64,000 bases of DNA from Rhodopirellula sp. SM50 (GTDB lineage: Bacteria; Planctomycetota; Planctomycetia; Pirellulales; Pirellulaceae), in NCBI RefSeq assembly GCF_002289565.1, contig NZ_NTFY01000060.1, forward strand, positions 62,001 through 126,000. Reading direction: 5' to 3'. Below, piece by piece: positions 3,001-52,001 of the stretch (position 1 is its first letter; each line of letters opens with the position of its first letter). Below the pieces are notes generated by a model, which saw only the letters and a program-made list of their open reading frames with translations, made no database searches and had not been told where the DNA came from. Position numbers and translations under genes: made by a program.

Positions 3001-6000
3001 ACATGTATTTTGGTCCATCAATGACTTGGGGCAAAATCTCGTTTTGTCCCAATCTGCCAGTTTGTCCCATTCGATATTCGCTGGCGACGAACCAACTGAA
3101 ATGGCGGGGACTCTCCCGTGGACGTCCGATATCGACGTGAATGGTGACGGAGTTTCCGATCTCTTCGTCGGGGCTGCAAATGTCGACGTCTACAGCGGCA
3201 GTCTTATCAAACAGCAAGCTGGCAAGATCTACGCACTTTCAGGTAGTCGGCTGCGAAGCAGTCTTCCGAGCGACGGTGTCATCTCGTTGGCCAACGCGAG
3301 TATTCCTGGCTTTGGTGGGATCCTGGCCGCCGATGGCCCCGCTGCAATCGTTCGTGAGGATCGCTCAGAAACGGCAGACGATTACACGCTTCGCGTCGAT
3401 GACGCGGACCGCTGGTACCGTTTCACCACGGTTGGCGACGGACTACCCGGTGATCAGATCGTGATCAGCCCGTTCCCGACACCGGCGAGCGAACTCTGGC
3501 CAACAGCTGTCACTGGTACGCTGCTGCCCGATGGCACACCGTCGCCGGGCATGTTGAACGTCGGTGGCCCCAACAACACCATCGTCGTGATGGAGTTTGA
3601 TCTGGCGACTTGGGCGCCCCCATCGGTGCTTACGAACCTGTGGAACAACCCCGATCTGCTGGAAAACGCGTGGCTGCCGCTCGACGTGCTGCTGGTCAAT
3701 CCTGGCGATTTAGCATCGCTAAAATTTGAACTGCTCGATCGGCGCGGCGACGGAACGATTGACTTCAATGATCTCGATGACGACGGCGTGATCATCGACC
3801 CGATCGACTTCACGCAAGCGATGCGTGACCGACTGCGTCATAGGCAAACCGAGTTCGTTTTTCGAATTAGTCTGGATCCAAATTCGGGGGCTGAGCTACA
3901 GATATTTGATCCAATTTATCACCCTACCTTGGGCACAGGGCTCAACCTGACGGTTTCTGAGTTCGGTGTGCTGGGCGATCTGTATGACGATCGAGGAGCG
4001 CGATTGAAACAGGGTCAATCCGTTGTCGACCTCAGAGGCGTTCCTGCGGGAACCTACTACTTGAATGTTTATAACTCAAGCAGTGGGCCAGACGACGAAC
4101 CTCTTCCGGTTTCTCAGCGGTTGCCGTTCCGACTCGAAATCATGCCGCCGAAGAGTGGTGCGACGCTGTACAAGCCGGATCGTGATGAAATTCATGGCGG
4201 ACAAGGGAATGACGTCCTGGTCGGCGACGATGACCTTGATCGCCTGTTCGGAGATGGCGGACGTGACGGATTCATCGCACAGCCGATCGAGGTCAGAGGC
4301 TACGAATCGACCATCGACTTCCAAGCCGGCGGAAATGATTGGCCGGGATCCGAAGCGGAAACACTTTCACGAAAAACCCTCGATAAGGTCGTTGATTTTG
4401 ATTCGCTCGAACCAGCGGTTGCGACGGCCGTCATCGACCAGTTGGGAATCAAGAGCACGCAGCTTGGCGTTTTTGCTAGACCCATTTACGTCAGTGATCT
4501 TGCGCAAATCGTCAGCCTAGACCTTTCGGACACAGCGGATCCGTTGGACCTGTCGTTTGGAACCGGCGCCGAGCACCTGACCAACCTGCTGAGCCTCAAT
4601 CTGTCAGACAGCAATGGAGTCAATCTCTCCGGCTTGCTGAGACAACCGTCTGCGGGAGACGAGTTTCCATACGGTGCGGGCCAACTGAAAACTCTGTTGG
4701 CGGATCGCGCCGGCTTGAGCGACGGTCACATCGCTGAGCTTGGCGTTTTGCATAACCTGGAGCACTTGAGCCTCTCCGACAACACGAGCATCACCGCGCT
4801 CCAACCGTTGGATGGACTCGAAGAACTGATGTATCTCGACGCGAGTGACAATGCAATCGTCGAACTAGGGCTGGCGTCGGGTTCTGCCAACCTGCAATAT
4901 GCCTATCTGGAAGACAACCAGATTGACGACGTCTCTCCACTCAGCAGCCTCCCTTCACTGCGGCGGCTTGACCTGCGGAACAATCAAGTCTCCGGCATCG
5001 AGGCGTTGCTCGGACAGACGATCATTGACAACGGCGATTTGGGTTTCGAGGAGCAAGGTGATGGCTGGACAGGAAATTGGAATCCGCACGCGTTCGAGTC
5101 TGACTACCGTATCTTGCCCGGACCGTTGACAATCGTGACAGACGGTCAGGGAAAACGCTCTAACCGAGTGAACTACACGCTTACGTCGCTTGCCGCAGAC
5201 ACCTACGACGTCCTGGCGACTTGGCCAATGCATGAGAGCAGGACTCGGGAAGCGAGCTACACCCTTCAGGTCACCGATGGATCGGGCGCGGACATCACGG
5301 AGAGCATCCTCCCGTTCGGCACATCAAGGACTTTCAATCAACGACTGAGACCGGACGAACAGCTGATTGGCGGAAACGATCCGCGTGAACTCGCCGGTCA
5401 TCCTTGGGTGGTTGTCACGCGAGTGACGATACCCGAAAACTCAACGCTCAGCGTCACGCTCACGGGCGAGGATGATGGGAATTTGGCGGCGGACGGGGTT
5501 CGATTGGAACGACGAGTCCTTCCCAAGCTTGATCGATTGGATCTGGGAGGAAATCCGTTGGACGCGGCAGCCCACGAATACATCATCCCAGGTTTGCAAA
5601 ATGCGTTGCACGGACGTCCCGGTGATTACCCTGCGCTTGTTGACGATCCCGCAACCCCGTTCACAGAAGGCTTGTTCTACGACACACCCATCATCTGGCT
5701 TGCCCCCTCTCAAGCGGACTCTGGGGCATCACCTTCCTTCACGGCTAGTGATGCGGTACGAAGTGATCCGGAACCCAATGTCAACTCGCACCAAGTAGAT
5801 TCTGACGCCCCAACCGTATCGCAGGCCGTGCAGACGCTTGCTCTCTATCCAGCATTGTTCATTGAGAATCAAGGGCAATGGCCAAATGATTCCGTGCGAT
5901 ATGCTTTCTTTGGATCGGGCGCCAACGTGCTGCACACCGACACCGGTCCCGTATTCCAGCTCTTCAAACCTGACGCGGAAGAAGATTCGAGCCTGTTAAC

Positions 6001-9000
6001 AGATGTCTTGGGTTCGGTGGATGTTCCAGCCGCACAGCTCGAAGGATTTGAACTGAGGGTTCAGTTCGAAGGTGCAAACGATGTCCTGCCGACGGGAATC
6101 AATCGGTCACCGGCAGTGAATCACTACTACGTTGGTGATCCGGCAAATTGGCATAGCGGCGTGTCAACTTATCAAACCGTGTCGTATCCGCAGATCTACG
6201 AAGGCATTGACCTCTTCACATGGGGGCGTCCGGACAATCTTAAGTATGAGTTCAAAGTCTCGCCCGGTGCCGATCATCGCGAAATCCAGGTCAGCTATGA
6301 AGGAAGCACGAAACTCTGGATCGATGATGATGGCGCGTTGCACATCGAAACCGAGGACGGCGAACTTGTTGACAGCGCGCCCTACGTCTACCAAACCGTT
6401 GACGGTCAGACGCGGGACATCGCCGCAGCATTTCAACTCGTTGACGACGACACCATCACCTTCCAAATCTTGGGCAGGTACGACTCCAGTGAAGAACTCA
6501 TTATTGATCCAATTCTCGACTGGTCGACATACGTGGGAGGCAGCAGTGCAGACTATGGCTATGACATTGCTGTTGATGGGGCAGGCAATGCATTTTTAAC
6601 TGGGCAAACCAACTCGGCTGGTTGGGGAACGCTGGGCTCTCACAACGGACATTACGATGCATTCGTTACAAGAGTCAGCTCCGGTGGCTCGCCGCTTTGG
6701 TCAGCGTACCTCGGAGGCACGTCTTTTGATTCCGGACGCGGCATCGCCCTGGACGCCTCCAACAATGTGTTCGTCACCGGATTCACCGGTTCAGCGGGCT
6801 GGACATCGACAGGGTCTCATGAAGGCCTCTATGACGCATTCGTGGCAAAACTCAATGAAAACGGTGGGCTTCTCTGGTCACGTTACGTCGGAGGCGATTC
6901 CGATGATTACGGCCATGACATCGCAACGGATTCCGCTGGCAATGCGTTGGTGGCGGGAGAAACGAAATCATCAGAGTGGGGCGAAAACTCTTACAAGGGA
7001 GGAACGTCTGACGGATTTGTTGCGAAGATTTCCTCAAACGGCGGGCTACTCTGGGGCAGTTACGTCGGTGGCAACTCGTTTGACGAGGCCAATGGAATTG
7101 CCGTGGATGCATCCAACAATTTGTTGGTCGCTGGAAGCACCGGTTCGTATGGTTGGACCTCGATCGGATCTCACAGCGGTGGGTCCTGGGATGCTTTCGC
7201 AAGCAAGCTCAATTCCGGCGGCGGAGTGATCTGGTCGACTTACTTGGGCGGGAGCAGCGTTGATTACGGCGAGAGCATTGCAGCGGACAGCGTGGGAAAC
7301 GTGCTGATTTCCGGCAGCACCTATTCATCGGGCTGGGTCACAGGCGGTTATGACACTCAGATTGGTGGAGGGAATGACGCCTTCGTCGTGAAGCTCAACA
7401 GTGCCGGTGGTCATGCGTGGTCTAGTTACCTTGGCGGGGAAAGTGGAGAGTTTGGCTACGACATCACAGTCGATCGCGACGACAGTGTTTTCGTGACAGG
7501 ATCCTCCAGTTCAGCTGGATGGGGAACGATCGGATCCTTCAACGGCGGGTCGAGTGACGCATTCATTGCCAAACTGGGAACCAACGGTGATCAACACTGG
7601 TCAACTTATCTTGGCGGGGCCTCGTATGACGTTGGGCATGGCATTGCCACGGACAACTCCTCAAATGCGTTCGTAACCGGGCAAACTAACTCGTCAAGTT
7701 GGGTTTCCAACGGGACATACCAAGGAGGAAATTCGGATGCATTCGTCGCGAAGATACTTGCGAACGCGGAGCCGCCTACCGACGTCTCACTGGGTAATCA
7801 GGTCATTCCAGAGGCACAGCCAGTCCAAACACTCATCGGGACGTTTTCGACCACTGACGGTGACCTGCCGTTCGACTCGCATACTTATCAACTGGTGACG
7901 GGATCTGGTGATACCGACAACGCTTTGTTTTCGATTCCCTCAGGCACCAATGAGCTGAGAAATGCAACGGTTCTCTCCTATGCAAATCAGCCGACCTACA
8001 GCATTCGTGTGCGGAGTACTGACCAGGGAGGTCTTGTCAGAGAAGAACAATTCACCATTTCGCTGCTCGCCTACCCCAACGAACTCGCACTGTCCAGCAC
8101 ATCGTTGATGGAGAGTCAACCTGCGGGGGCGATTGTCGGAAGTTTTGTGACGACTGATCCGGATAACACACCGGGATCGCACGTCATTGAATTCGTTTCT
8201 GGGGCCGGTGATGCTGACAACGCTCGGTTCGCAATCGAATCAGGCACCAACGATTTGCAGACCGCAGCGATACTGGATCACGAAACACAAGCGACGTACA
8301 GCATCCGCGTCCAGGCTACCGATCCCGACGGACTGTCGATCGAGAGGGTGTTTGCGATCGATGCAATTGATCTGGAGGGCCAGATCAGCGGCATCAAGTG
8401 GCTGGACCTTAACGGCGACGGCAACCGCAACAGCACCCTTCCGGGCAGCCAAGGCTACGAGCCGCCGCTGGAAGGTTGGGAGATTTACATTGATGAAAAT
8501 CGTGACGGTTCATTCACGACCGGCGAGCCGGTCACGGCAACCGACTACCTGGGCAACTATCGTTTCGATCCGCTTCCTCCGGTCGTGCCGCCGACGGCGT
8601 ATTGGCCGCTGGATGAAACAGTGGGCGACAAGGCATTTAGCGCCGTTGGAAACGCATTGACGGGAGACGTCTCGAACGGAACCTGGAATGAAACGGGGCA
8701 AATCGGCGGAGCCATGGAGTTCAACGGGACCGATACCTTTATCGAGATAACCGATGGAAACTTGATCGCACCGGGCGCGGACGACTGGTCCTTCTCGGCA
8801 TGGCTCAAGACGGACGAAACCTCGTTGAATCCGGGGGAATCCCTCTATCATCAGACACTCTATGCAGATCAAGGAGTGGACCCCGGTGACGCGGTGATCA
8901 TCTCCATTGTTGGTGATCGTGTGCAAACAGAATTTCGATCGAGCACTCCAGTCGGTGGCGACACTGTTGCGAGTCTAGCGGGCACGACTGTGATCCTACC

Positions 9001-43247: not shown

Positions 43248-43580
43248 TCAAACCAGCGTCTGTTTCGCGCCACCGAGCAGGTGAAAGTGCAGGTGTGGCA
43301 CTTCCTGGCCTCCCGCCTGGCCGCAGTTGACGACCATGTTGTAGCCATCGGCCAAACCTTCCTGGGCGGCAATCTTGGCGACCGCCAACACGCAGTGACC
43401 GACAATCGATTCATCTTCGTCGGACAAATGTGCCAGCGATTCAATCTCTTTCTTGGGAATCACCAAGACATGAACCGGCGCCTTGGGATTGATATCGCGA
43501 AACGCCAAGCACACGTCGTCTTCGAAAACGATGTCGGCGGGAATTTCGCGGTCGATGATTTTGCTAAAGATCGAGGGCAT
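43248..43580 (-). CDS. HIT family nucleotide hydrolase (HINT-like)
   Basis: 110 residues, full length for the family. The histidine triad H96-L-H98-F-H100 is followed by L-L-G-G, and the N-terminal F-S-K-I-I-D-R-E-I-P stretch is typical of HinT-type proteins. The enzyme would hydrolyse nucleoside phosphoramidates or related AMP conjugates in the cytosol. It lies 42 bases downstream of the FtsK-like gene on the same strand, so it may be cotranscribed, but it is a common housekeeping gene. Confidence 0.95.
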   Translation of the reverse strand: MPSIFSKIIDREIPADIVFEDDVCLAFRDINPKAPVHVLVIPKKEIESLAHLSDEDESIVGHCVLAVAKIAAQEGLADGYNMVVNCGQAGGQEVPHLHFHLLGGAKQTLV

Positions 43581-43622: not shown

Positions 43623-46600
43623 CTACGATTCCAACCAAGCTTTGACGTCCATCGCATCGGCTTGATCGGGCTGGCGGAACTTGCTGATTCGGCCGGCCGG
43701 TTCATCGTACAACAGCATCGTCGCCGCGGACAGTTCGCTGGCGATCGGAGAATCGATCAACAAGGACGAATCGGACGCATTCAATTGCCCCAGCACACGC
43801 AGTTCGACATCATGCTGCGATTGCCGGGGTAACCAACGCGTCATGATTTCCACGCCGCCGCACACCAAAATACAGAAGACGTTGGCCGGCGGCCCGTCCT
43901 TGAGCACTTCGCGCATCGCCTGGCCTCCGGACATGCTGCCCTGCGTCGCATCGAGCGAAAAATTAAACGCGTCTTCGTGGCGAAAATCTCGGAATCGATC
44001 TAACGGATCAATCACGATCACGATCGGATGGACCCCCTCGGCCTCGTCACCGCGTTCCTTCACCAGCTCGGCCAACTTGCCCATTTCCGGCGCACTCTCA
44101 CGTGGCTTCACTTCCCGGACGTTGAACCCCGCCCGCTGCAGCCACGGAGACAAGGACTGGGTTTCGTTGGTTCGGTTGCCATTGAAATAGATCACTTGCA
44201 ATTCCGAGTTCGACCTCGCGAACCCGGAAAGCATCGCGGAGAGCAACCCGGGGCGGGCCTCCGGAGGCGGGATCATCACCACGTTGCGACCGGCGTTGCG
44301 CGACAATTCGATTGCAACCGGCGGACCGATTTCGACGGACTCTCCCAACAACCCGTGCAACTCTTCGCCCGGCTGAGCCCGATCGCCGATCGCGGCCGCA
44401 GCCAGCCCCGCCGACCACTTGCAGGGACGGTTGCCTTCAAACACCACCGGCGGAGGCAGTTTTTCGAGAAACACTTTGTCCCGCTGCGCGATCTTGGACA
44501 ACAACTTTCGATGCTCGTCGTTGCTTAGCCAGGCAACCTGGAACGGTTGATTGCCTTCGATCAAGCCGCCCGCATCGTTGTAAATCGCTTCACCGGGTCG
44601 CGTGATCAATCGCGCCGCGGTGTTGTCATCGGACAAGATCAACGCCGCGTCGGACTCGCTACATTGCATCGCGATTCGAACGGCCATCTGCCCCAGCGTT
44701 GCTCGCGGCAACGAGTAGGCCCCCGCCAGCGACTGGCTGCTCAGAATCACGTGGATCCCAAACGACCGCCCCTGACGAACCAGCCGGTCCAGCAACATCG
44801 AGCACTCCGCGGCCACCTTGTCGTCGCGAATGAATAACTCTTGAAATTCATCGATGATCAGCATGATTCGCGGCATCGGCTGACCGCTCGCCGATCGATA
44901 GTCTGACAACTCCTGCGTCGACTGCGCCCGGAACAGTTCTCCACGCTGTTGCAATTCCTGATCCAGCCGCTGCAACACGCTGCGGCCGAATTCTCGCTCG
45001 CTTTCGATGCCGATCACCCGTGCGTGCGGCAACGCGCTGTCGGCATACGTCTTGAATTCGACACCTTTCTTGAAATCCAACAGATAAAACTGCAGTTGGT
45101 CGGGCGTGTAATGATGTGCCCCCGAAGTGATGATGGAGTGCAGCAAGGTACTTTTGCCCGATCCGGTTTTCCCGGCGATCAACACGTGCTGGCGGACGCC
45201 CTCGCCCAAGTCCAAGGCGAGTGTCCGTTGTCCGCCCTGGCTGCCGATCGTGATCTCGATCCCCTCGTCGGTCCGCGCCTTGCCGCCTTGTGCCGGCAGG
45301 ATCGATTCCAGCGGGATTTCCACCCGCGCGGCCATGGTGGCGGCCGTCCCGATCTGGTTGGCCAGTTCCCCGCGCAGATCGGCCACGACATTCTCCGCCG
45401 GCACAAACTCCAATCGTTCCAGCCCCTCGTGCCGCACGCTCCAATGGCCGTCTTTGTCGACCGACAATTCCAGCACGCGGCTGTCGTGGGGCAACGGCAG
45501 ATCGCTGGGCCAAACTTGATCCTCCTTGCAGACCATGAAGACGAACACGCCGCAACGAACGCCACTCTCGATCAGTGCTTTGAGGTGTTTGTACCCGCCA
45601 CGGGTCAAGCCTTCGGGAAACCCGACCGCGGCGACGGCTTGATAGGGCTCGGCCATCGAACCTGCGATCAGGTTGTAGTCCTCGACTCGCTCGAACTGGT
45701 CCCGCAGACTGGACTGCAAGACATCTTCGGCGTGCTGGGCGATTTCGCCCAAACGTGTTTCGATTTGATTTTCGGTCGTCCAGACACGATGGCTGACAAG
45801 GGTGGGATCATGGTCGGCCAAGGACATGAAGGAGGTAAAGTTCTGGCCGCGACCGATCGGATCGATCAACGTCAATTTGGTTCGCCCGCCGGAGGTCCCC
45901 GAAAGCATTCGCCACAACACCTGATGCACCAGTTCGACCGCCTTGACCATCTGGTCCGGGGCGGCGTGAATGATCAAACCGCTGTGCAGCCGCCGATGGA
46001 GCGCCACCGGCATTTCGTCGGGAAGATCGCCGCTGCGAAACAGCGGTTTGACTTGATCGGAATGGTTGCCCGCCCCGTCGGGGGCATCCCCGATGCGTTC
46101 GGACGTCAGCGTCCGCGCCAGAAACTCGGTCACTTTCAGATGCCCCAGCGGCACGAAATCCAATTCGTCGCACTCGGAGTGCGGCTGGTCGGCGACCTTG
46201 TCCCACTTTGGAAACCGAATAGCGCACGCCTTTCCGGCCGACTTGATGCGTTCCAAACCGCCCCGCACGCCGTCACGCATCCGATCGGTCACCCGTTGCA
46301 ATTCCTCGTGCCGTCGCCGCGCGTTGGCTTCCCGTTGCCGGTGCAAGGCTTGGTCGGTATCGGCCAACTGTGCCGTGATGGTTGCCGCGACCTGCTCGGC
46401 ACGATGATGCATCTCCGAATTCACCTTGCCATAGCCGGACAGAAAATCGTCACCGAGCTGTTCCAATTGCTCGGTCAATTCTGCCCTGGCCGCTTCCTGC
46501 TCGGCCGCCAACTGCTGCGCCAGATGTTCCAACTGCTCTTCGCGCCATTGGTCGGCCGCTTCGAGGTGCCGATCACGGCGGTCTTCCAGTTCGGCCAACG

Positions 46601-47540
46601 CGTCGCGGGCGGTGTCTTTGGAGATCTTGCACCCGGCCGCCGCAGCTTCTTCGGCGGCCTGGCCCGTCCGAATGATCTTGGGGTACATCCGCCGGGTGTG
46701 CCGTCGCAGAGGAATCAGCAACGCCGCGTAAATGCAAAACCCGATCACGGCCGCGGCCACCACGCCGGAAATCATGTACAGCCAATACTCAGCCGGCTGG
46801 ACGACCTGCACGCCGACACACCACAACACGACCGCGACCGCGACGCCACCGGGCAAATAAAACGAATCATCGAACTTGGCCGCCGCACTGTTTTGCAGCT
46901 CGGTGACAAAGCCCCGACACTTTCGCGAAAGCCGATACACGGTGTCGACCGATTCGGCAATCGATTCCGGTGCCGGTTCGCTCATGTCGTCTTCCGGAGT
47001 CTCCGCCGGTGGGACGTTGGGCAACCGATCCAGTCGCCGAATCGTCAAATCGCGTGCCCAAGCCACGTCTTCACTGATCGGAACGAGCGAGGCATTGATT
47101 TGCTCGATCTCTTTTTTACTCTGCTCGCCGGGCTGGTGACGCCGCGCCTCGAATTGATGCAGGATGGCTTCGCGACGCGCTTCGACTTTCCGCTCGATCG
47201 CGGTTTTTCCCTCGGCAGCCTTTTTGCGATACAGCGACGCGAGACGATTGACCTCCGTTCGCAGCCGAACGGTTTCCTCTTCATAGCTGGCGAACACCTT
47301 TTCCTCGGCCGCGTCCCATTGCCCCAGGGTGATCCGCCGCTGCCGTCGACATTCGGCCGTCACGCCACTGCGATCGGACAGCAACTGCTGCTCCTCTTCG
47401 TCGCGTTGGGCGGCGTGCTGGTTGATCAGTTCCTGACGCTGGGCTTGACAGGTTTCAAACCGCGCGACCAACGCATCGATCAGGCGGCGTTGTCGCTCGG
47501 GCGAGAACAGCCCGGCGGGTGCGACCGAGAAGTCTTTCAT
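43623..47540 (-). CDS. FtsK/SpoIIIE-type ATPase, EssC/EccC-like, with coiled coils and two membrane helices
   Basis: 1305 residues from ATG 47540; ATG 47609 is an alternative and the frame is open to 47705. An N-terminal coiled coil (about 10-200) precedes two membrane helices (about 230-278), then a second coiled coil (about 300-460). Three FtsK-like modules follow. D1 (about 518-700) lacks a Walker A. D2 has Walker A G790-K-T-G-S-G-K-S-T798 and Walker B D897-E898. D3 (about 1085-1300) is degenerate, with only a Walker-B-like I-V-I-V-I-D-P near 1170. Three such modules after two membrane helices is the plan of type VII secretion ATPases, rather than of FtsK, which has one. It probably moves proteins (or DNA) through the membrane. 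No FHA domain was seen. Confidence 0.85.
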   Translation of the reverse strand: MKDFSVAPAGLFSPERQRRLIDALVARFETCQAQRQELINQHAAQRDEEEQQLLSDRSGVTAECRRQRRITLGQWDAAEEKVFASYEEETVRLRTEVNRLASLYRKKAAEGKTAIERKVEARREAILHQFEARRHQPGEQSKKEIEQINASLVPISEDVAWARDLTIRRLDRLPNVPPAETPEDDMSEPAPESIAESVDTVYRLSRKCRGFVTELQNSAAAKFDDSFYLPGGVAVAVVLWCVGVQVVQPAEYWLYMISGVVAAAVIGFCIYAALLIPLRRHTRRMYPKIIRTGQAAEEAAAAGCKISKDTARDALAELEDRRDRHLEAADQWREEQLEHLAQQLAAEQEAARAELTEQLEQLGDDFLSGYGKVNSEMHHRAEQVAATITAQLADTDQALHRQREANARRRHEELQRVTDRMRDGVRGGLERIKSAGKACAIRFPKWDKVADQPHSECDELDFVPLGHLKVTEFLARTLTSERIGDAPDGAGNHSDQVKPLFRSGDLPDEMPVALHRRLHSGLIIHAAPDQMVKAVELVHQVLWRMLSGTSGGRTKLTLIDPIGRGQNFTSFMSLADHDPTLVSHRVWTTENQIETRLGEIAQHAEDVLQSSLRDQFERVEDYNLIAGSMAEPYQAVAAVGFPEGLTRGGYKHLKALIESGVRCGVFVFMVCKEDQVWPSDLPLPHDSRVLELSVDKDGHWSVRHEGLERLEFVPAENVVADLRGELANQIGTAATMAARVEIPLESILPAQGGKARTDEGIEITIGSQGGQRTLALDLGEGVRQHVLIAGKTGSGKSTLLHSIITSGAHHYTPDQLQFYLLDFKKGVEFKTYADSALPHARVIGIESEREFGRSVLQRLDQELQQRGELFRAQSTQELSDYRSASGQPMPRIMLIIDEFQELFIRDDKVAAECSMLLDRLVRQGRSFGIHVILSSQSLAGAYSLPRATLGQMAVRIAMQCSESDAALILSDDNTAARLITRPGEAIYNDAGGLIEGNQPFQVAWLSNDEHRKLLSKIAQRDKVFLEKLPPPVVFEGNRPCKWSAGLAAAAIGDRAQPGEELHGLLGESVEIGPPVAIELSRNAGRNVVMIPPPEARPGLLSAMLSGFARSNSELQVIYFNGNRTNETQSLSPWLQRAGFNVREVKPRESAPEMGKLAELVKERGDEAEGVHPIVIVIDPLDRFRDFRHEDAFNFSLDATQGSMSGGQAMREVLKDGPPANVFCILVCGGVEIMTRWLPRQSQHDVELRVLGQLNASDSSLLIDSPIASELSAATMLLYDEPAGRISKFRQPDQADAMDVKAWLES

Positions 47541-47725
47541 GGTGCGGATCGGAATCGAGGAGAAAAGACGAGGGAGAAATCCCCAACCGGGCAGACCCGT
47601 CGCTTTCATCGCGTGGAGTCCTCTCGTCTGGGCCCCCGCCGACAGTCTGTCTGCCAAACAGGAAGAGCGTCCGAAACTCGTCGCCGGTGCCGCTACCCCA
47701 ATCATTTCAGTTCAGGAGACCGACG

Positions 47726-47992
47726 TTAGTATAGCTCGCCGGAACGCTGGTCGGTGTCGTTGACGGCGGCTTGTGATTTCCGCAATGTCTCGGTGAATTC
47801 GGCCAACGTGGACGCAAACCGCGACAGGCTCGGCCCCAGAGGGGCGAGAAACTCCCGCTCGAATTGGGCCGCGCGATCGTCTCGCCAGTCCTGTTTGGTT
47901 TCCTGCCATAACCGGGCAAAATCGTTGAATTCGCGGCGGAATCGATTCTGGGCGTCGGTCAGGGGGGCGAGGTTCAGGGGATCAAGTGGCAT
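47726..47992 (-). CDS. WXG100-like small helical protein
   Basis: 88 residues from ATG 47992, four bases after the stop of the upstream gene. The frame is open to 48067 inside that gene, so the short start is preferred. Two predicted helices flank a turn near P51-L-G-P54. Trp36 in D-W-R-D-D-R-A-A-Q-F sits near the end of helix 1, as the WXG motif does in ESX substrates, although Gly is replaced by Asp. There is no signal peptide. Size, helical hairpin and position beside an EssC-like ATPase suggest a secreted substrate or chaperone of that ATPase. Assignment is by pattern only. Confidence 0.7.
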   Translation of the reverse strand: MPLDPLNLAPLTDAQNRFRREFNDFARLWQETKQDWRDDRAAQFEREFLAPLGPSLSRFASTLAEFTETLRKSQAAVNDTDQRSGELY

Positions 47993-47996
47993 GGCT

Positions 47997-49214
47997 TCAG
48001 CGTTTGATCTGGTCGCGTGCGTGGCGGGCGAGTGTTTCCTGGTACTTCTTCTTGCCCGCTTCGACACTTTTGCGAATCGCCCGCGTGCTCTCTTCGCTCT
48101 CCTTGCGTAGTTCGGTAATCATCTCCAACGACTCGATCTGAAAATCGCTGATCGCATCGACCAGTTTCTGCACCGATTCAGGATTGATCGTGCTGCCGTA
48201 TCCGGCCTTCAACGCGGCGCGTTCGAGTTCACGCCCCAAGTTGGCGACATCTTCCAACCCCTTGTTGACGCCGTCCTTCATCGCTTCGGTCGCCTGGGTG
48301 ACTTCGTGGAGCCCGTGCTGGCTTTGATAGACCGTGCCCAGGATCGTGAAGACATGTTCGTTGGTCGTGAAAAACGTGACCGCGCGACGGTACACGCGTT
48401 CCTTGACATCGTGCGTCTGTTTCAACTTGCTGATCAATGTTTCACCGACGTCGTAACCGATCTCCAAGTTCTCGGCGATGTCTTTGAGCAGCTGGTACGT
48501 CTCGTCCTCGTCTTCATACTTCTGACGCGACTCATCACGCGCAAGCTCCAACTGGCTCTTGCCCCCTTCGTCGCTGCCGGTGTAGTTGTCCAATGCCTGT
48601 TGGGCGTCCGACAATGCCTTTTGAGCCGCTTCTAACCGTGGGGCGTGGGCATCGAGCAGCTCCCGCGCCAGCACCTCGGCTTCCTTGAGCGCAAATCGAA
48701 AGTCGATGTACGCGTCCATGATCCGGTCTTCGCTCTTGAGGGCCTCTTTGGTGTCCTTGGCGACGTCGGAATAGATTTCGACGATTTTTTCGAAGCGGTC
48801 GTTGGGCGTCCCCCGGCGGATCTTCATCCACCAGTTGGACAGTTTTTCGGTGCCGCTGATGCGACCGTCATCCAGCTGGGCGATCAACCGCTTGCTGTCT
48901 TCGCGGACGGAGTCGAATTCCTGAGAGATCTGCAGGTACCGGTTGCCGACCTCGATGCTCTCGACATTCTCTCGCACCAACGCGTTGAACGCCCCCATGT
49001 GCTGAATCACATCCGCGATCGCCAACACTTTCCCCTCGTCGAGATGCTTGACGCCTTCGAGCAGGGAAATCAATTCTTGAGGGGCTCCGCTCTTGCTGTC
49101 GACGCCAAAATCCTTCAACACCTGGACCGCATCATTGAGGTATTTTCGCATCTTGCTCGTATCGCGGGGCTGAGACTGAGATTGCGATGCAGACGCGTGA
49201 GCTTGCTGGGACAT
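47997..49214 (-). CDS. Long helical protein in the FtsK-like cluster (TelA-like at a guess)
   Basis: 405 residues, almost entirely alpha-helical, with a Ser/Gln-rich N-terminus and charged heptad-like stretches. There is no signal peptide or membrane helix. N-W-W-M-K-I-R-R near residue 126 and a long A-E-V-L-A-R-E-L-L stretch recall the all-helical TelA (toxic anion resistance) family, but the match is weak and not tested. It is first in the minus-strand operon with the WXG-like and FtsK-like genes (four-base gap to the former). It is probably a cytosolic or scaffold part of the same complex. Confidence 0.78.
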   Translation of the reverse strand: MSQQAHASASQSQSQPRDTSKMRKYLNDAVQVLKDFGVDSKSGAPQELISLLEGVKHLDEGKVLAIADVIQHMGAFNALVRENVESIEVGNRYLQISQEFDSVREDSKRLIAQLDDGRISGTEKLSNWWMKIRRGTPNDRFEKIVEIYSDVAKDTKEALKSEDRIMDAYIDFRFALKEAEVLARELLDAHAPRLEAAQKALSDAQQALDNYTGSDEGGKSQLELARDESRQKYEDEDETYQLLKDIAENLEIGYDVGETLISKLKQTHDVKERVYRRAVTFFTTNEHVFTILGTVYQSQHGLHEVTQATEAMKDGVNKGLEDVANLGRELERAALKAGYGSTINPESVQKLVDAISDFQIESLEMITELRKESEESTRAIRKSVEAGKKKYQETLARHARDQIKR

Positions 49215-49372
49215 GTTTTTGGGTCTTTGACGGATGTTTGGTTGCGAAAGAAACCGACGACGGGCGTCAACACGCCTACCAAGTTAGCGCACCGATGCCC
49301 CAGACGCAATCGAGACGGTATCTTGTATTCTCGGGCACCGCCCCCACGTCCTGTTTTCCCACACCAAACGCG
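49215..49372. promoter_or_regulatory. Divergent control region of the FtsK-like cluster
   Basis: 158 bases separate the divergent starts at 49214 and 49373. The gap should hold promoters for both arms of the cluster. A TTGTATTCTCGG-like A/T-richer stretch near 49323-49334 is the only candidate element; no boxes are claimed. Confidence 0.4.
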
Positions 49373-49756
49373 ATGAGCCGAGCACAAGCCAAACAGACGC
49401 AAATCGAAGTCCCCGGCCAACGCCTGACGCTGCAGGAAACGTTGCGGGTGATGGACGTCGCCCGGGAAATGCGGGACCAACGCGAGAAAGCCGAAGAGAT
49501 GTTTCGCCGGGATGACCTCCGCGTCGCCCTCCGCGAAAAACTGATGCGGACGGCGCGATTGTCCGGCGACACCGTGACCGAGGCTGAAATCGACGCGGCG
49601 ATCGGCCAGTACATGGAAACCCTGCACACCTACCAGGATCCCGCGCCAGGGTTGAAACGTTTTCTCGCCCACGGCTGGGTGTGGCGTGACAAGATTCTTT
49701 GGTCGCTGGCCGGCGTCGCGGGATTCGCCGGCGGCCTTTGGTACCTCTTCGGTTAG
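49373..49756 (+). CDS. Tail-anchored small protein (DUF6384-like)
   Basis: 127 residues from ATG 49373; the longer frame from 49187 overlaps the divergent gene and has no protein-like look. A helical charged part carries the stretch L-x-x-T-L-R-V-M-D-V-A-R-x-M-R. A hydrophobic helix fills the last 20 residues, so it is a C-tail anchor. The pattern R-x-K-L-M-R-T-A-x-L-x-G-x-x-V-T-E-A-E-I-D-A-A-I resembles what I recall as DUF6384, but that is from memory. It opens the plus-strand arm of the cluster and probably acts at the membrane with the ATPase. Confidence 0.75.
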   Translation: MSRAQAKQTQIEVPGQRLTLQETLRVMDVAREMRDQREKAEEMFRRDDLRVALREKLMRTARLSGDTVTEAEIDAAIGQYMETLHTYQDPAPGLKRFLAHGWVWRDKILWSLAGVAGFAGGLWYLFG

Positions 49757-49774
49757 CCCAGGATTGCGTGCAAC

Positions 49775-51196
49775 ATGACGATTTCCGGTCCGGCAATGCA
49801 CCGTCTGCTGATGGACGGGTACAGAGACGTGCAGCAACGCATCGACCAGATGCGGTCCGAGTTCTCCTCGATCGATGCCCAACGAGACCAATTGGGTGAC
49901 GATCGCAGCGACGCGCTCATCAACCTGGCGGAATACTACCTACCGGAGTTGACCCGCGAATCGATCGAATCGTCTTGGGGCGAAGTCCGCGATCGCGTGC
50001 GGCAGGTCTTGATGCGAAAAGAAGACCATCGGCGTCGCGTGTCGGCCGCCCTGGCCGAAGCCAACGAGCGGCGCGCGCTGCAGGAGGATCGCTTGCTGGA
50101 CATCAATGCCGACTATGACGAAGCGAAAACGAAACAAGACGAACTCGCCACGCAAGTCGAATCTGAATTGGCCGCCGACGAAACCTTTGTTTCACTTTCC
50201 AACCAAGCCGCGATGGCCGAAGCCGCCCTGGAGCGGGCCGAAGCCAACCTGAACGAAATCGAACAGGACGCCGCGCGAAAACTGCCGGGCTACGAAAACA
50301 GCGCCCTGTTCACCTACCTGAGAGACCGGAAGTACGGCACCGACCAGTACGGCAAACGCGGCTTCACACGCCGGATGGATCGTTGGTTGGCGCAATACAT
50401 CGATTACCACAAAGCCAGACAGAGTTACCAGTTCCTGGCCGATACTCCCGACCAGATGCGCAAACTGATCGCCGAAGACCGCGCCGCACTCGACACCGTG
50501 ATGGTGGAACTGGAAAAGCGACGCGACCTGGTCGTCAAGCGACTCGGACTGACCGCCGCCGTCTCCAAAGCCGAACAGTTGGGCGATCGCCGCGAGCGTC
50601 AACTCGTGGAACTCGACAAGCTCCGCGACGAAACTGAATCGCTCCAGCGCGAGCTGACGGACCTGGAAGACACCCGCGGAGAATACTACCGCGAGGCGGT
50701 GGCCGCGATTCGCGAACGGCTCGCCGAGATCGACGCGCGCGACCTGGCCTCCAACGCCCGCCGAACCCCTTCGCTGACCGATGATCAAATCGTCGCACGG
50801 ATCCAGGGGGTCGACCAGAAACTCGACGATCTGGACGGCGACACCCGCCGACAGCACGACGAGATTCGTGACATGCAACGCTGCATCGAAGCACTCGGCC
50901 GGCTGCTCCAACGTTTCCGCGCGGCAAAGTTCGACGCCGCGCGTTCCCATTTCGAACCCTCGCTGGACATCACGGACCTCTTGCATCGGGCCAAGAACGA
51001 ACGCGACATCGACGACGCCTGGGATCGACTCCGCCGCGCCCAGCGCTGGGGGCCGACGCTCAGCCGACAACTGGGCAACGTCGCCTCGCACCCGATGTCC
51101 CAAGTCTTGATCGGTGCGATGGCACTCGCCGCCGGAGCATCCAAAAAAGACCACACCGACCGAGCCGCCCGCCGCCGCGACCACAACCGCCACTAG
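49775..51196 (+). CDS. Coiled-coil protein in the FtsK-like cluster
   Basis: 473 residues, starting 18 bases after the tail-anchored gene, with AGGA eleven bases upstream of ATG 49775. It is dominated by Glu/Arg/Leu-rich helices with heptads (about 15-170, 225-330, 345-400), separated by a Tyr/Gly-containing part near 180-215. A short hydrophobic stretch (about 438-450) and a basic tail (R-A-A-R-R-R-D-H) end it. No known catalytic motif is seen. It is likely a structural part of a membrane-linked complex with the other four genes. Confidence 0.8.
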   Translation: MTISGPAMHRLLMDGYRDVQQRIDQMRSEFSSIDAQRDQLGDDRSDALINLAEYYLPELTRESIESSWGEVRDRVRQVLMRKEDHRRRVSAALAEANERRALQEDRLLDINADYDEAKTKQDELATQVESELAADETFVSLSNQAAMAEAALERAEANLNEIEQDAARKLPGYENSALFTYLRDRKYGTDQYGKRGFTRRMDRWLAQYIDYHKARQSYQFLADTPDQMRKLIAEDRAALDTVMVELEKRRDLVVKRLGLTAAVSKAEQLGDRRERQLVELDKLRDETESLQRELTDLEDTRGEYYREAVAAIRERLAEIDARDLASNARRTPSLTDDQIVARIQGVDQKLDDLDGDTRRQHDEIRDMQRCIEALGRLLQRFRAAKFDAARSHFEPSLDITDLLHRAKNERDIDDAWDRLRRAQRWGPTLSRQLGNVASHPMSQVLIGAMALAAGASKKDHTDRAARRRDHNRH

Positions 51197-51198
51197 CC

Positions 51199-51245
51199 AA
51201 AAAAGGGGAAGGGGGTCATTTCAAAAAGGGGAAAGGGGTCATTTT
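51199..51245. repeat. 23-bp direct repeats at the 3' side of the transposase
   Basis: Two tandem copies of AAAAAGGGGAAGGGGGTCATTT-type sequence with a 23-base period lie at 51199-51245. They reach a few bases into the 3' end of the transposase. An inverted copy is at 52002-52027. Related copies end both units of the tandem duplication (20426 and 20839). Confidence 0.85.
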
Positions 51246-51943
51246 GGCGGCGGTTGGACGGGTTTTGCTTTAGGCTTTTTGCGTGGCCGCCCCTGAGGAC
51301 GCACGGTGGACCACGTTCCGGTCCGGTCACACGTCTCTTCGATCCACTCTTCACTGCCATACGGACGTCCGCGTTGGATGCACGTGTGGATCGCATCCGT
51401 TTCGGACTTGGTCAACGCTTCATTCACACGGCCCGTCCAATTGGGAGGGCGTCGGACCGGCCAAGTCGACAGCAGTGCAGGGTCGCGGTCACACTTGTGG
51501 TGCCATCGATGAAGCGATCCGAATGTCCAGTCTTCCGCGCGTTCGACCAACTTGGCGCGTCGTGCATTGCGTTCCACATACCGGCACACCGTGAGAAAGT
51601 GGGCGTCGTCTTCAACGGGAAAGCTCCTGAAGGGACCCTGGTAGAGATGCCCGTTCCCGCGAGTCTGGTTGTGAGCGTGATAGCGAAGGGTGTGCGTCGA
51701 TGCAAGCCAACCGCAGAAGCGTCCCATACCGCCATCCTTACGCGGGCTGAGGACAAAATGCCAATGATTGGGCATCAGGCAAAACGAAAACAAGTCCAAC
51801 GGGTACTTGTCGAGCCCTTCGCGCACCGTTCGCACAAACGCTTGGTAATCCTCAGGCTTGTGAAAGATTTTCTGTCGGTTATTCCCACGATTAATCGCAT
51901 GGTAGATTCTTCCTGCCTCATCGGGCCGTACAGAACGCGGCAT
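51239..51943 (-). mobile_element. Y1/REP-associated tyrosine transposase (RAYT)
   Basis: 234 residues from ATG 51943 (two more residues if TTG 51949 is used). The HUH motif appears as N-H-W-H-F near residue 59. The R-Y-V-E-R-N-x-x-R-A-K-L stretch supplies the catalytic Tyr and is typical of TnpA_REP/RAYT rather than of IS200/IS605 TnpA. The C-terminus is basic and Pro-rich. Such enzymes nick single strands at short REP palindromes and are usually single-copy genes. Here the gene is framed by short AAAAGGGGAAGGGGGT repeats that occur elsewhere in the window, which are its likely cognate sites. No IS-type inverted-repeat pair or target duplication was seen beyond these. Confidence 0.85.
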
Positions 51944-52001
51944 GAGCAACCCCGGATTGAAGTCTCAGTTGCGAAACAACGCAATTTACCACGCCCGATC
52001 C

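Follow-up and report, generated by a model that had tools for sequence, protein, structure and literature searches.

A putative reduced type VII-like export system of Planctomycetota and its neighbouring DUF6384 module in Rhodopirellula

Type VII secretion systems (T7SSs) are divided into subtypes T7SSa to T7SSj, which the accessible part of a recent classification places in Actinomycetota and Bacillota, with T7SSc–j placed only there (Garrett 2024, PMC11217815). A ubiquitin-like component (YukD/EsaB/EccD) is found in nearly all T7SSs, T7SSd being described without it. WXG100 genes beside FtsK/SpoIIIE genes in certain Gram-negative bacteria, not confirmed as secretion systems, are mentioned in the available portion of a 2023 review, which credits these cases to Sutcliffe 2011 and Unnikrishnan 2017 (PMC10765036). 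A 2014 survey of 940 genomes, which harvested proteins on a W-x-G motif, assigns nearly all WXG100 proteins to Actinobacteria and Firmicutes and a few to Chloroflexi, as far as its accessible text goes (PMC3935865). Here, we describe a locus in a 64,000-nucleotide stretch (the window) of Rhodopirellula sp. SM50, lying on contig C104 of this 9.8-Mb planctomycete genome. Its five open reading frames (ORFs), A to E, include a membrane ATPase related to EccC/EssC (A) and a small WXG100-like protein (B).

The reading we favour, with moderate confidence, is that A and B are two of the four parts of a reduced type VII-like export system of Planctomycetota, C, D and E being separate. The other two parts are W1, a canonical WXG100 protein, and X2, a helical protein of approximately 200 residues. 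With the T7SSa (ESX) systems of Actinomycetota, the set has in common an EccC-like membrane ATPase with serial FtsK modules, a WXG100 protein, and more than one WXG100-like protein (W1 and B). It differs from them in that A has a single module with a Walker A motif and three modules were found, not four; W1 lacks the YxxxD/E motif, the host is a double-membrane bacterium, and no EccB, EccD, EccE or MycP gene was recognised beside A (no genome-wide search was made). With the T7SSb (Ess/Yuk) systems of Bacillota, it shares EssC as the second-best NCBIfam model of A and, in most genomes, a single canonical WXG100 gene; X2 and its small partners resemble the LXG and Lap proteins in gene order and helical build. 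Unlike T7SSb, A has no Pfam match to an FHA domain and shows a coiled-coil-like N-terminus there instead, and the window genome lacks YukD/EsaB. Among the conserved neighbours of A, EccB, EccE, MycP, EsaA, EssA and EssB were not recognised, no search having been aimed at these families.

The T7SSc–j systems share a core of FtsK-type ATPase and WXG100 protein with lineage-specific parts, a likeness drawn from their description in the available text and not from sequence (PMC11217815). A plasmid relative from Caballeronia has vWA, kinase and PP2C genes, and T7SSc has vWA, kinase and PPM phosphatase genes, while a counterpart of X2 was not identified in the accessible part of the T7SSc–j description (PMC11217815). 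As far as can be judged from sequence, the planctomycete set may work like a T7SS; because the near-universal YukD is missing and export is something we infer, we do not claim it as a full member. Literature searches returned no match for type VII secretion combined with Planctomycet and EssC (an earlier mention is possible in Sutcliffe 2011 or Unnikrishnan 2017), none for DUF6384, and none for WXG, TerD and FtsK together. WXG100 combined with Planctomycetes returned calpain work only, and combined with Rhodopirellula a planctomycete in a reference title only, within the accessible parts of these sources. W1 carries W-x-D, and the harvest on W-x-G in the 2014 survey, as its available text describes it, may be why such genes were passed over (PMC3935865).

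Distribution and arrangement of A, W1, X2 and B

The association of A with W1 and X2 was examined in one fixed draw of 294 planctomycete genomes, many of them draft assemblies; the searches scored only the best candidates of a first look, and the counts ignore ancestry. A strong A (over 390 bits, the next best match being far lower) is present in 54 genomes spread over 16 family labels. X2 is found in 56, including all 54 with A (E 8e-12 or better), and the two extra matches are weak (20.8 bits in G050 and 25.9 bits in G074). The Pfam WXG100 model, PF06013, also matches in 56 genomes, 50 of them over its cut-off, comprising the 54 with A and two without it (G021 and G191). Neither of these two matches is recognised by a planctomycete W1 profile, and both were rejected. 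A count of W1 in all 54 was likewise rejected, since the PF06013 match in one genome (G230, 24.5 bits) gives no match to the W1 profile. The same profile confirmed the sub-cut-off W1 proteins of G065, G286 and G007. W1 therefore accompanies A in 53 of 54 genomes and is absent from all 240 that lack A. Among 40 close relatives of the window genome, A and W1 agree completely: 30 have both, every W1 over the Pfam cut-off, and 10 have neither.

These genes need not be neighbours. The three cluster in 36 of the 54 genomes (W1 within 8 kb of A); in 10 others, W1 and X2 stay paired at a distance from A, in 7 each gene stands separately, and in G230 X2 is apart from A and W1 is missing. The window genome belongs to the third group, with W1 at C143:39146–39349 and X2 at C106:29477–30028. 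The five-gene cluster therefore does not include the canonical WXG100 partner; W1 is on another contig, and only the divergent B adjoins A. Some of the scattered cases are drafts with A at a contig edge (G201, G056 and G230), and in four genomes (G018, G078, G108 and G176) the parts are separate within one contig. That the parts scatter yet are almost never lost singly is good evidence of one functional system.

Where the genes do adjoin, their arrangement is regular. A scan of the Genome Taxonomy Database found at least 458 relatives of A, and the best 80 named loci, many cut by contig ends, were analysed; of these, 60 have B, 44 have X2 and 40 have W1, while C, D and E were each found in 3. 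When the ORFs of 80 A neighbourhoods and the window were clustered by blast, genes upstream of A on the same strand included W1 in 47 of the 81 loci, X2 in 40 and B in 35, usually in the order W1–X2–B–A. An iterative profile started from B and run on the same 81 neighbourhoods ended with 110 ORFs in 63 loci, in every one of which a match sits immediately upstream of A in the same orientation. Two matches occur in 47 of these 63 loci, and in the cases read the second is the canonical WXG100 protein. In G018 and G099, which have no B near A, a B homologue adjoins X2 instead.

B itself (47726..47992, minus strand) is the 88-residue W-x-D helical hairpin originally described, with its bend at W36-R-D. 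It matches the WXG100_ESAT6 model TIGR03930 at E 1.2e-4 (22.2 bits; cut-off 44.85) and PF06013 at E 0.028 (15.1 bits; cut-off 27.3), reaching neither cut-off. Because its profile also recovers the canonical WXG100 protein, we class B as a short WXG100-like protein that, by these comparisons, is divergent from the family. Two W1 representatives exceed the PF06013 cut-off (40.2 and 35.1 bits) and stay under that of TIGR03930 (29.4 and 31.4 bits). In 103 W1 rows, W-R-D-Q was matched 77 times. In this genus and in G312, W1 follows a gene of a tetratricopeptide repeat (TPR) protein cluster (15 members in 18 loci; for example, locus L333, 7174–8398, on contig C143 of genome G000), and often lies near ORFs that by eye resemble topoisomerase or gyrase genes.

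X2 is modelled as two helices of 68 and 81 residues (pLDDT 93), and two X2 proteins searched against Pfam gave no LXG or PPE match. The planctomycete proteins mostly end in a short variable tail, and some bear an extension. Extensions with a common DSGW-type motif were seen in loci L077, L076, L062, L265, L267, L274 and L256; the one searched, from L077, matches the Imm33-like family PF24719 (28.9 bits; cut-off 27).

The ATPase A and its FtsK-like modules

A (43623..47540, minus strand) is a protein of 1305 residues with a membrane hairpin and three FtsK-like modules. The mechanical ORF is 1360 residues long; the start at MKDFS, which gives 1305, is preferred because the open frame of an orthologue in the same genus (G302) spans only 1302. 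In line with the two membrane helices of the original prediction, a hydropathy scan finds two hydrophobic segments, at about residues 226–254 and 252–282, which form the two-helix hairpin (residues 226–282; 46695..46865, minus strand). Across 69 A ORFs of at least 1200 residues, the first 600 residues hold two such segments in 56, one in 11, three in one and none in one. All 14 genomes examined from the genus carry A, whose closest relative among the named matches listed is from Planctomycetes bacterium TBK1r (98% identity; records very near the window were possibly left out). Just downstream of A, at 43248–43580 on the minus strand, lies a small protein that by eye resembles the HIT family. 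A homologue at equal offset in 12 loci, the window included, indicates that within the genus the A/B site has itself remained fixed.

A is EccC/EssC-like, both in its membrane hairpin and in its best relatives by sequence and by Foldseek. The NCBIfam models rank EccCa first (109.6 bits, 1.9e-31), followed by EssC (99.4 bits) and EccCb (88.9 bits), all below their cut-offs, with FtsK (17.2 bits, 7.9e-4) and HerA (11.4 bits, 0.078) far behind. A profile of 22 A orthologues run against the Protein Data Bank (PDB) finds EccC of Thermomonospora curvata (4nh0) first at 137 bits, then EccC5 and YukB, whose match (residues 665–944) starts in the last part of the module before and continues through the catalytic module; similarity to the DNA translocases FtsK (41 bits) and TcpA (34 bits) is much lower. 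The predicted structure of residues 432–1305 (pLDDT 84) is again closest to 4nh0 by Foldseek (E 1.1e-30 over 891 columns), with FtsK at 1.7e-16. VIA-align pairs the model with 745 residues of EccC (Z 28.1, rmsd 14.5) and with 493 residues of ATPases 2–3 of EssC (Z 29.1, rmsd 7.2).

The three modules predicted at the outset differ in what supports them. The middle one (residues 745–1032; 44445..45308, minus strand) is recognised by Pfam FtsK_SpoIIIE (residues 761–938, 95.7 bits) and has a mean column identity of 70% in 33 rows. Its Walker A motif, GKTGSGKST (residues 790–798; 45147..45173, minus strand), is present in all 70 aligned rows with invariant P-loop residues, and a Walker B pattern in 66 of 70. 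Walker A occurs in none of the 70 rows in either flanking module, and only the middle module would be catalytic, as judged by motif. Profile comparison relates the C-terminal module (residues 1030–1305; 43626..44453, minus strand) to the catalytic one (97.6%, E 3e-12, 223 columns), which marks it as an apparent decayed copy of the catalytic-module fold. Against the PDB, the C-terminal module gives weak EccC5 matches (E 0.027 and 0.2); matches to alkaline phosphatase (E 0.009–0.06) were taken as chance. The N-terminal module (residues 470–755; 45276..46133, minus strand), which has lost Walker A, shows no sequence link to the catalytic module by profile comparison and no credible PDB match by sequence (best E 0.48). 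The predicted structure of A aligns with EccC across this region, which suggests an FtsK-like module here too.

How these modules correspond to those of EccC depends on the method. The second module had been expected to match the second ATPase of EccC/EssC best. EccC and EssC are indeed the best relatives, and by sequence the catalytic module is nearer to ATPase 1 of EccC (71.5 bits) than to ATPase 2 (52.4 bits). With an ATPase 1-like catalytic module and a shorter C-terminus, A would lack the last EccC module. Structural alignments instead pair the three modules of A with ATPases 1–3 of EccC, at odds with the sequence register.

The C, D and E module

All five ORFs lie where the original prediction placed them, in the same divergent arrangement, and each is conserved as a protein in other genomes, which argues that none is a chance ORF. 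C (47997..49214, minus strand) is an all-helical protein of 405 residues encoded on the same strand as B; D (127 residues; 49373..49756, plus strand) and E (a coiled-coil protein of 473 residues; 49775..51196, plus strand) run in the opposite direction. D matches DUF6384 (PF19911) at 31.6 bits (cut-off 25), its residues 17–124 falling on model positions 5–112 of 308, and is thus a DUF6384 protein cut to its N-terminal first third; distant loci have full-length members. Its suggested tail anchor receives weak support from this match, since full-length members have an obvious hydrophobic stretch there by eye, while the C-terminal segment of D itself is under the hydropathy threshold. No Pfam family exceeds its cut-off for C or E, and none reaches E 0.01 for a distant C homologue. 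TelA (PF05816), suggested by the helical pattern of C, was considered for this protein and rejected, as it was found by sequence in none of 78 genomes of the phylum, window genome included, at E 1e-3.

C and E occur in the same 16 of the 40 close relatives. In five distant planctomycete loci (L204, L205 and L210–L212) and on two plasmids, C, DUF6384 and E follow one another in one direction. Eleven plasmids carry C, and the two examined, from Bradyrhizobium and Pseudomonas, have the order C–DUF6384–hypothetical/E; no FtsK or WXG100 gene is listed within about 6 kb of C on these two, for which the gene tables are incomplete. A proteobacterial operon of 'cell surface protein', DUF6384 and hypothetical genes is the same module as C, D and E of the window and has the same order in distant members; the window differs in its truncated D and in having C divergent to D and E. 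In two loci of this type (L213, 12338–14095, and L217, 4971–6848), an adjoining membrane protein of one cluster resembles CstA by eye. In the window, the ORF directly after E (51239–51949, minus strand) resembles, by eye, a REP-associated (Y1-type) transposase.

The five genes had been read as one unit. A very improbable form of this idea is that they work as a single machine within this genus, the A/B system having taken on C, D and E as additional components. Only 4 bases separate the end of C from the start of B on the same strand, and C, D and E adjoin A and B in the window genome and in 10 of the 12 other same-genus neighbourhoods fetched (of 13 genomes). The association of A with C also exceeds chance, as 8 of the 14 genomes with C in the 294-genome draw have A (p 0.001, ancestry ignored). 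The remaining 6 lack A, and C is absent from 46 of the 54 genomes with A. In G297, C and E lie about 3 Mb from A; neither was found in G304, although A and B are there; and G317, outside the genus, has both, with no intact A found. The two proteobacterial plasmids likewise hold the module apart from FtsK and WXG100 genes. Divergence is uneven as well, C of G290 being 67% identical and A 35%. In G317, a stop-bearing partial match to A (residues 56–397, 24% identity; L133, C1:553960–554982) lies in a genome without W1 and is perhaps a remnant, or mere coiled-coil similarity. In L136 (G303, same genus), part of the C-terminal end of C is repeated in the interval that separates C from B (7604–7774 with 3915–5606), a trace of rearrangement where the two modules join.

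One machine of five genes is therefore rejected as a general rule, since C, D and E occur apart from A or without it. The gene-neighbourhood survey proposed with the original prediction puts B immediately before A in 63 of the 81 loci, and C, D and E were present in 11. The original prediction had named an ATPase conserved without its four companions as evidence that would refute it, and this is what is seen with respect to C, D and E. These three look like a separate module that, in this genus, came to lie beside A and B. The T7SS-like character first suggested for the whole cluster is supported for A and B, the one a relative of EccC/EssC with a near-constant WXG100 partner, and not for C, D and E, because their module occurs without A.

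Plasmid relatives, alternative roles and a putative export model

Relatives of A at E 1e-20 occur on five plasmids, and on four of them a W1 homologue adjoins the ATPase: Caballeronia (1.5e-27), Helicobacter (1e-17), Rhodococcus AH-ZY2 (1e-12) and Deinococcus (3e-8). In Caballeronia, the order is vWA, WXG100 (so annotated), a 436-residue protein, 113- and 76-residue proteins, FtsK, CARF, vWA, PP2C, kinase and AAA. In Helicobacter, an 89-residue W1 homologue precedes a 340-residue protein annotated as an HNH endonuclease, an SMI1/KNR4 protein, a 77-residue protein and FtsK. Rhodococcus AH-ZY2 has an FtsK protein with an N-terminal TerD domain, then a 314-residue protein, a 73-residue protein and the W1 homologue, and Deinococcus has FtsK, the W1 homologue, a 94-residue protein, a 326-residue protein and a 144-residue protein. 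The fifth relative, on a plasmid of R. pseudokoreensis (L379), lies beside Hsp70, TPR and GrpE genes and has no W1 match.

A long helical protein stands in the place of X2, with C-terminal regions that differ between plasmids; one is annotated as an HNH nuclease and has a neighbouring gene of immunity type. Homology by X2 profile is supported only in Rhodococcus AH-ZY2 (the 314-residue protein, E 2.7e-6); the Deinococcus 326-residue protein is marginal (E 1.9e-4), as the profile reaches that level on a W1 homologue too. The Caballeronia protein scores E 0.037 and the Helicobacter HNH protein has no X2-profile match, so both are likened to X2 by gene order and helical look only, and the short proteins in the place of B have no significant B-profile match. 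Pfam finds nothing in the long proteins of Caballeronia and Rhodococcus AH-ZY2, whose C-termini we take to carry nuclease-like motifs. SMI1/KNR4 is an immunity family, and the HNH endonuclease and SMI1/KNR4 genes of Helicobacter look like a toxin and immunity pair. The loci are laid out like a polymorphic toxin-type system: the long helical carrier varies at its C-terminus, its partners are small and helical, and an immunity-type neighbour is sometimes present.

Several observations weigh against an export system. The YxxxD/E export motif, an actinobacterial feature, was found in none of 100 distinct W1 sequences (last 30 residues). YukD (PF08817), of which the first reading of the locus had seen no homologue, was not found in the window genome, and 33 of the 40 close relatives lack it, the window genome counted. 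No outer-membrane part was identified, and 18 of the 81 loci, some cut by contig ends, have no B-profile match in the neighbourhood of A. The VIA fold search with X2 gave unspecific coiled coils only among the 50 matches listed (for example, SMC arms, VIPP1 and YscO), and LXG, PPE and Esp folds were not prominent there; this does not speak against such folds, a plain hairpin being hard for a fold search to place. The catalytic module also matches the PADLOC model SspH (87.8 bits), the MADS model mad8 (77.5 bits) and the phage FtsK-like family PHROG 1358 (162.5 bits); phage relatives of A comprise 117 records, all partial and none at 80% coverage. Where only the catalytic module is considered, VIA-align scores FtsK (Z 31.3 over 274 residues, rmsd 2.5) slightly above EccC and EssC (28–29). 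Crude hydropathy detects no membrane helix in the Caballeronia and Deinococcus ATPases and only one marginal segment in each of the three others (Helicobacter, Rhodococcus AH-ZY2 and R. pseudokoreensis), and the wider A family need therefore not be a channel.

The 7 close relatives that do have a YukD-type ubiquitin-like gene probably owe it to a different system. One of them (G309) has no A, and YukD was rejected as a component of the A set on this distribution. In G313, the YukD-type gene lies about 15 kb from A.

The lack of YukD, of YxxxD/E on W1, of a known outer-membrane part and of a clear hairpin in the plasmid ATPases keeps weight on a role inside the cell. The FtsK-like ATPase would then remodel or activate a W1–X2 effector complex in an intracellular conflict or defence system, without export, as in vWA/kinase/CARF clusters. 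The vWA, CARF, PP2C, kinase and AAA genes around the Caballeronia relative, the TerD domain of the Rhodococcus AH-ZY2 relative and the SspH and MADS matches all fit such a role. Conversely, the hairpin is usual in Planctomycetota, A is found in every genome of the genus that was examined, unlike most mobile defence islands, and its nearest relatives by sequence and Foldseek are EccC and EssC. Even on the plasmids, a one-helix membrane protein lies next to or near the ATPase in Deinococcus and R. pseudokoreensis. On balance, we consider an intracellular role unlikely.

The strong VIA score for FtsK bears on another alternative, in which A would be a house-keeping DNA translocase of chromosome, division or envelope, with W1, X2 and B as its adaptors. 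A shares the fold and motifs of its catalytic module with FtsK/SpoIIIE and TcpA, and the gyrase/topoisomerase-like ORFs near W1 in this genus could be read in the same way. A departs from these translocases, however, in its additional degenerate modules and in being almost always accompanied by WXG100 and X2 proteins, and another gene of the window genome matches FtsK more strongly (C105, Pfam 217 bits). A is also confined to 54 of the 294 genomes and is thus not essential in the phylum. To our knowledge, known WXG100 proteins are T7SS substrates or partners. We therefore regard a DNA translocase as improbable.

For the type VII-like export system that we favour, a mechanism can be outlined. 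A would sit in the inner membrane by its two-helix hairpin, and its single working FtsK module would use ATP to push a folded W1–X2–B complex of helical hairpins across that membrane, while the two degenerate modules may serve as docking or regulatory parts. X2 would be the likely cargo or targeting domain, in the role of LXG or PPE proteins in known T7SSs, with W1 and B as its small partners, and an onward route through the outer membrane is presumed. In this genus, C, D and E would simply be a separate module settled alongside.

More tentatively, and with some doubt, double-membrane bacteria may have a T7SS-like family of their own, made up of W1, X2 as an LXG-like carrier, usually B, and an EccC-like ATPase with one engine. 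Many Planctomycetota would carry such a family as a resident, and its relatives would be plasmid-borne in Helicobacter, Caballeronia, Deinococcus and Rhodococcus. We rate it lower because the likeness to X2 and B on the plasmids is one of gene order and helical build. If it is true, the T7SS would not be a Gram-positive invention. The near one-to-one occurrence of the ATPase, a WXG100 protein and a new helical partner turns the locus into a defined four-part set. If the system exports protein, it raises the question of how a T7SS engine works in cells that also have an outer membrane, and the origin of the T7SS would become testable.

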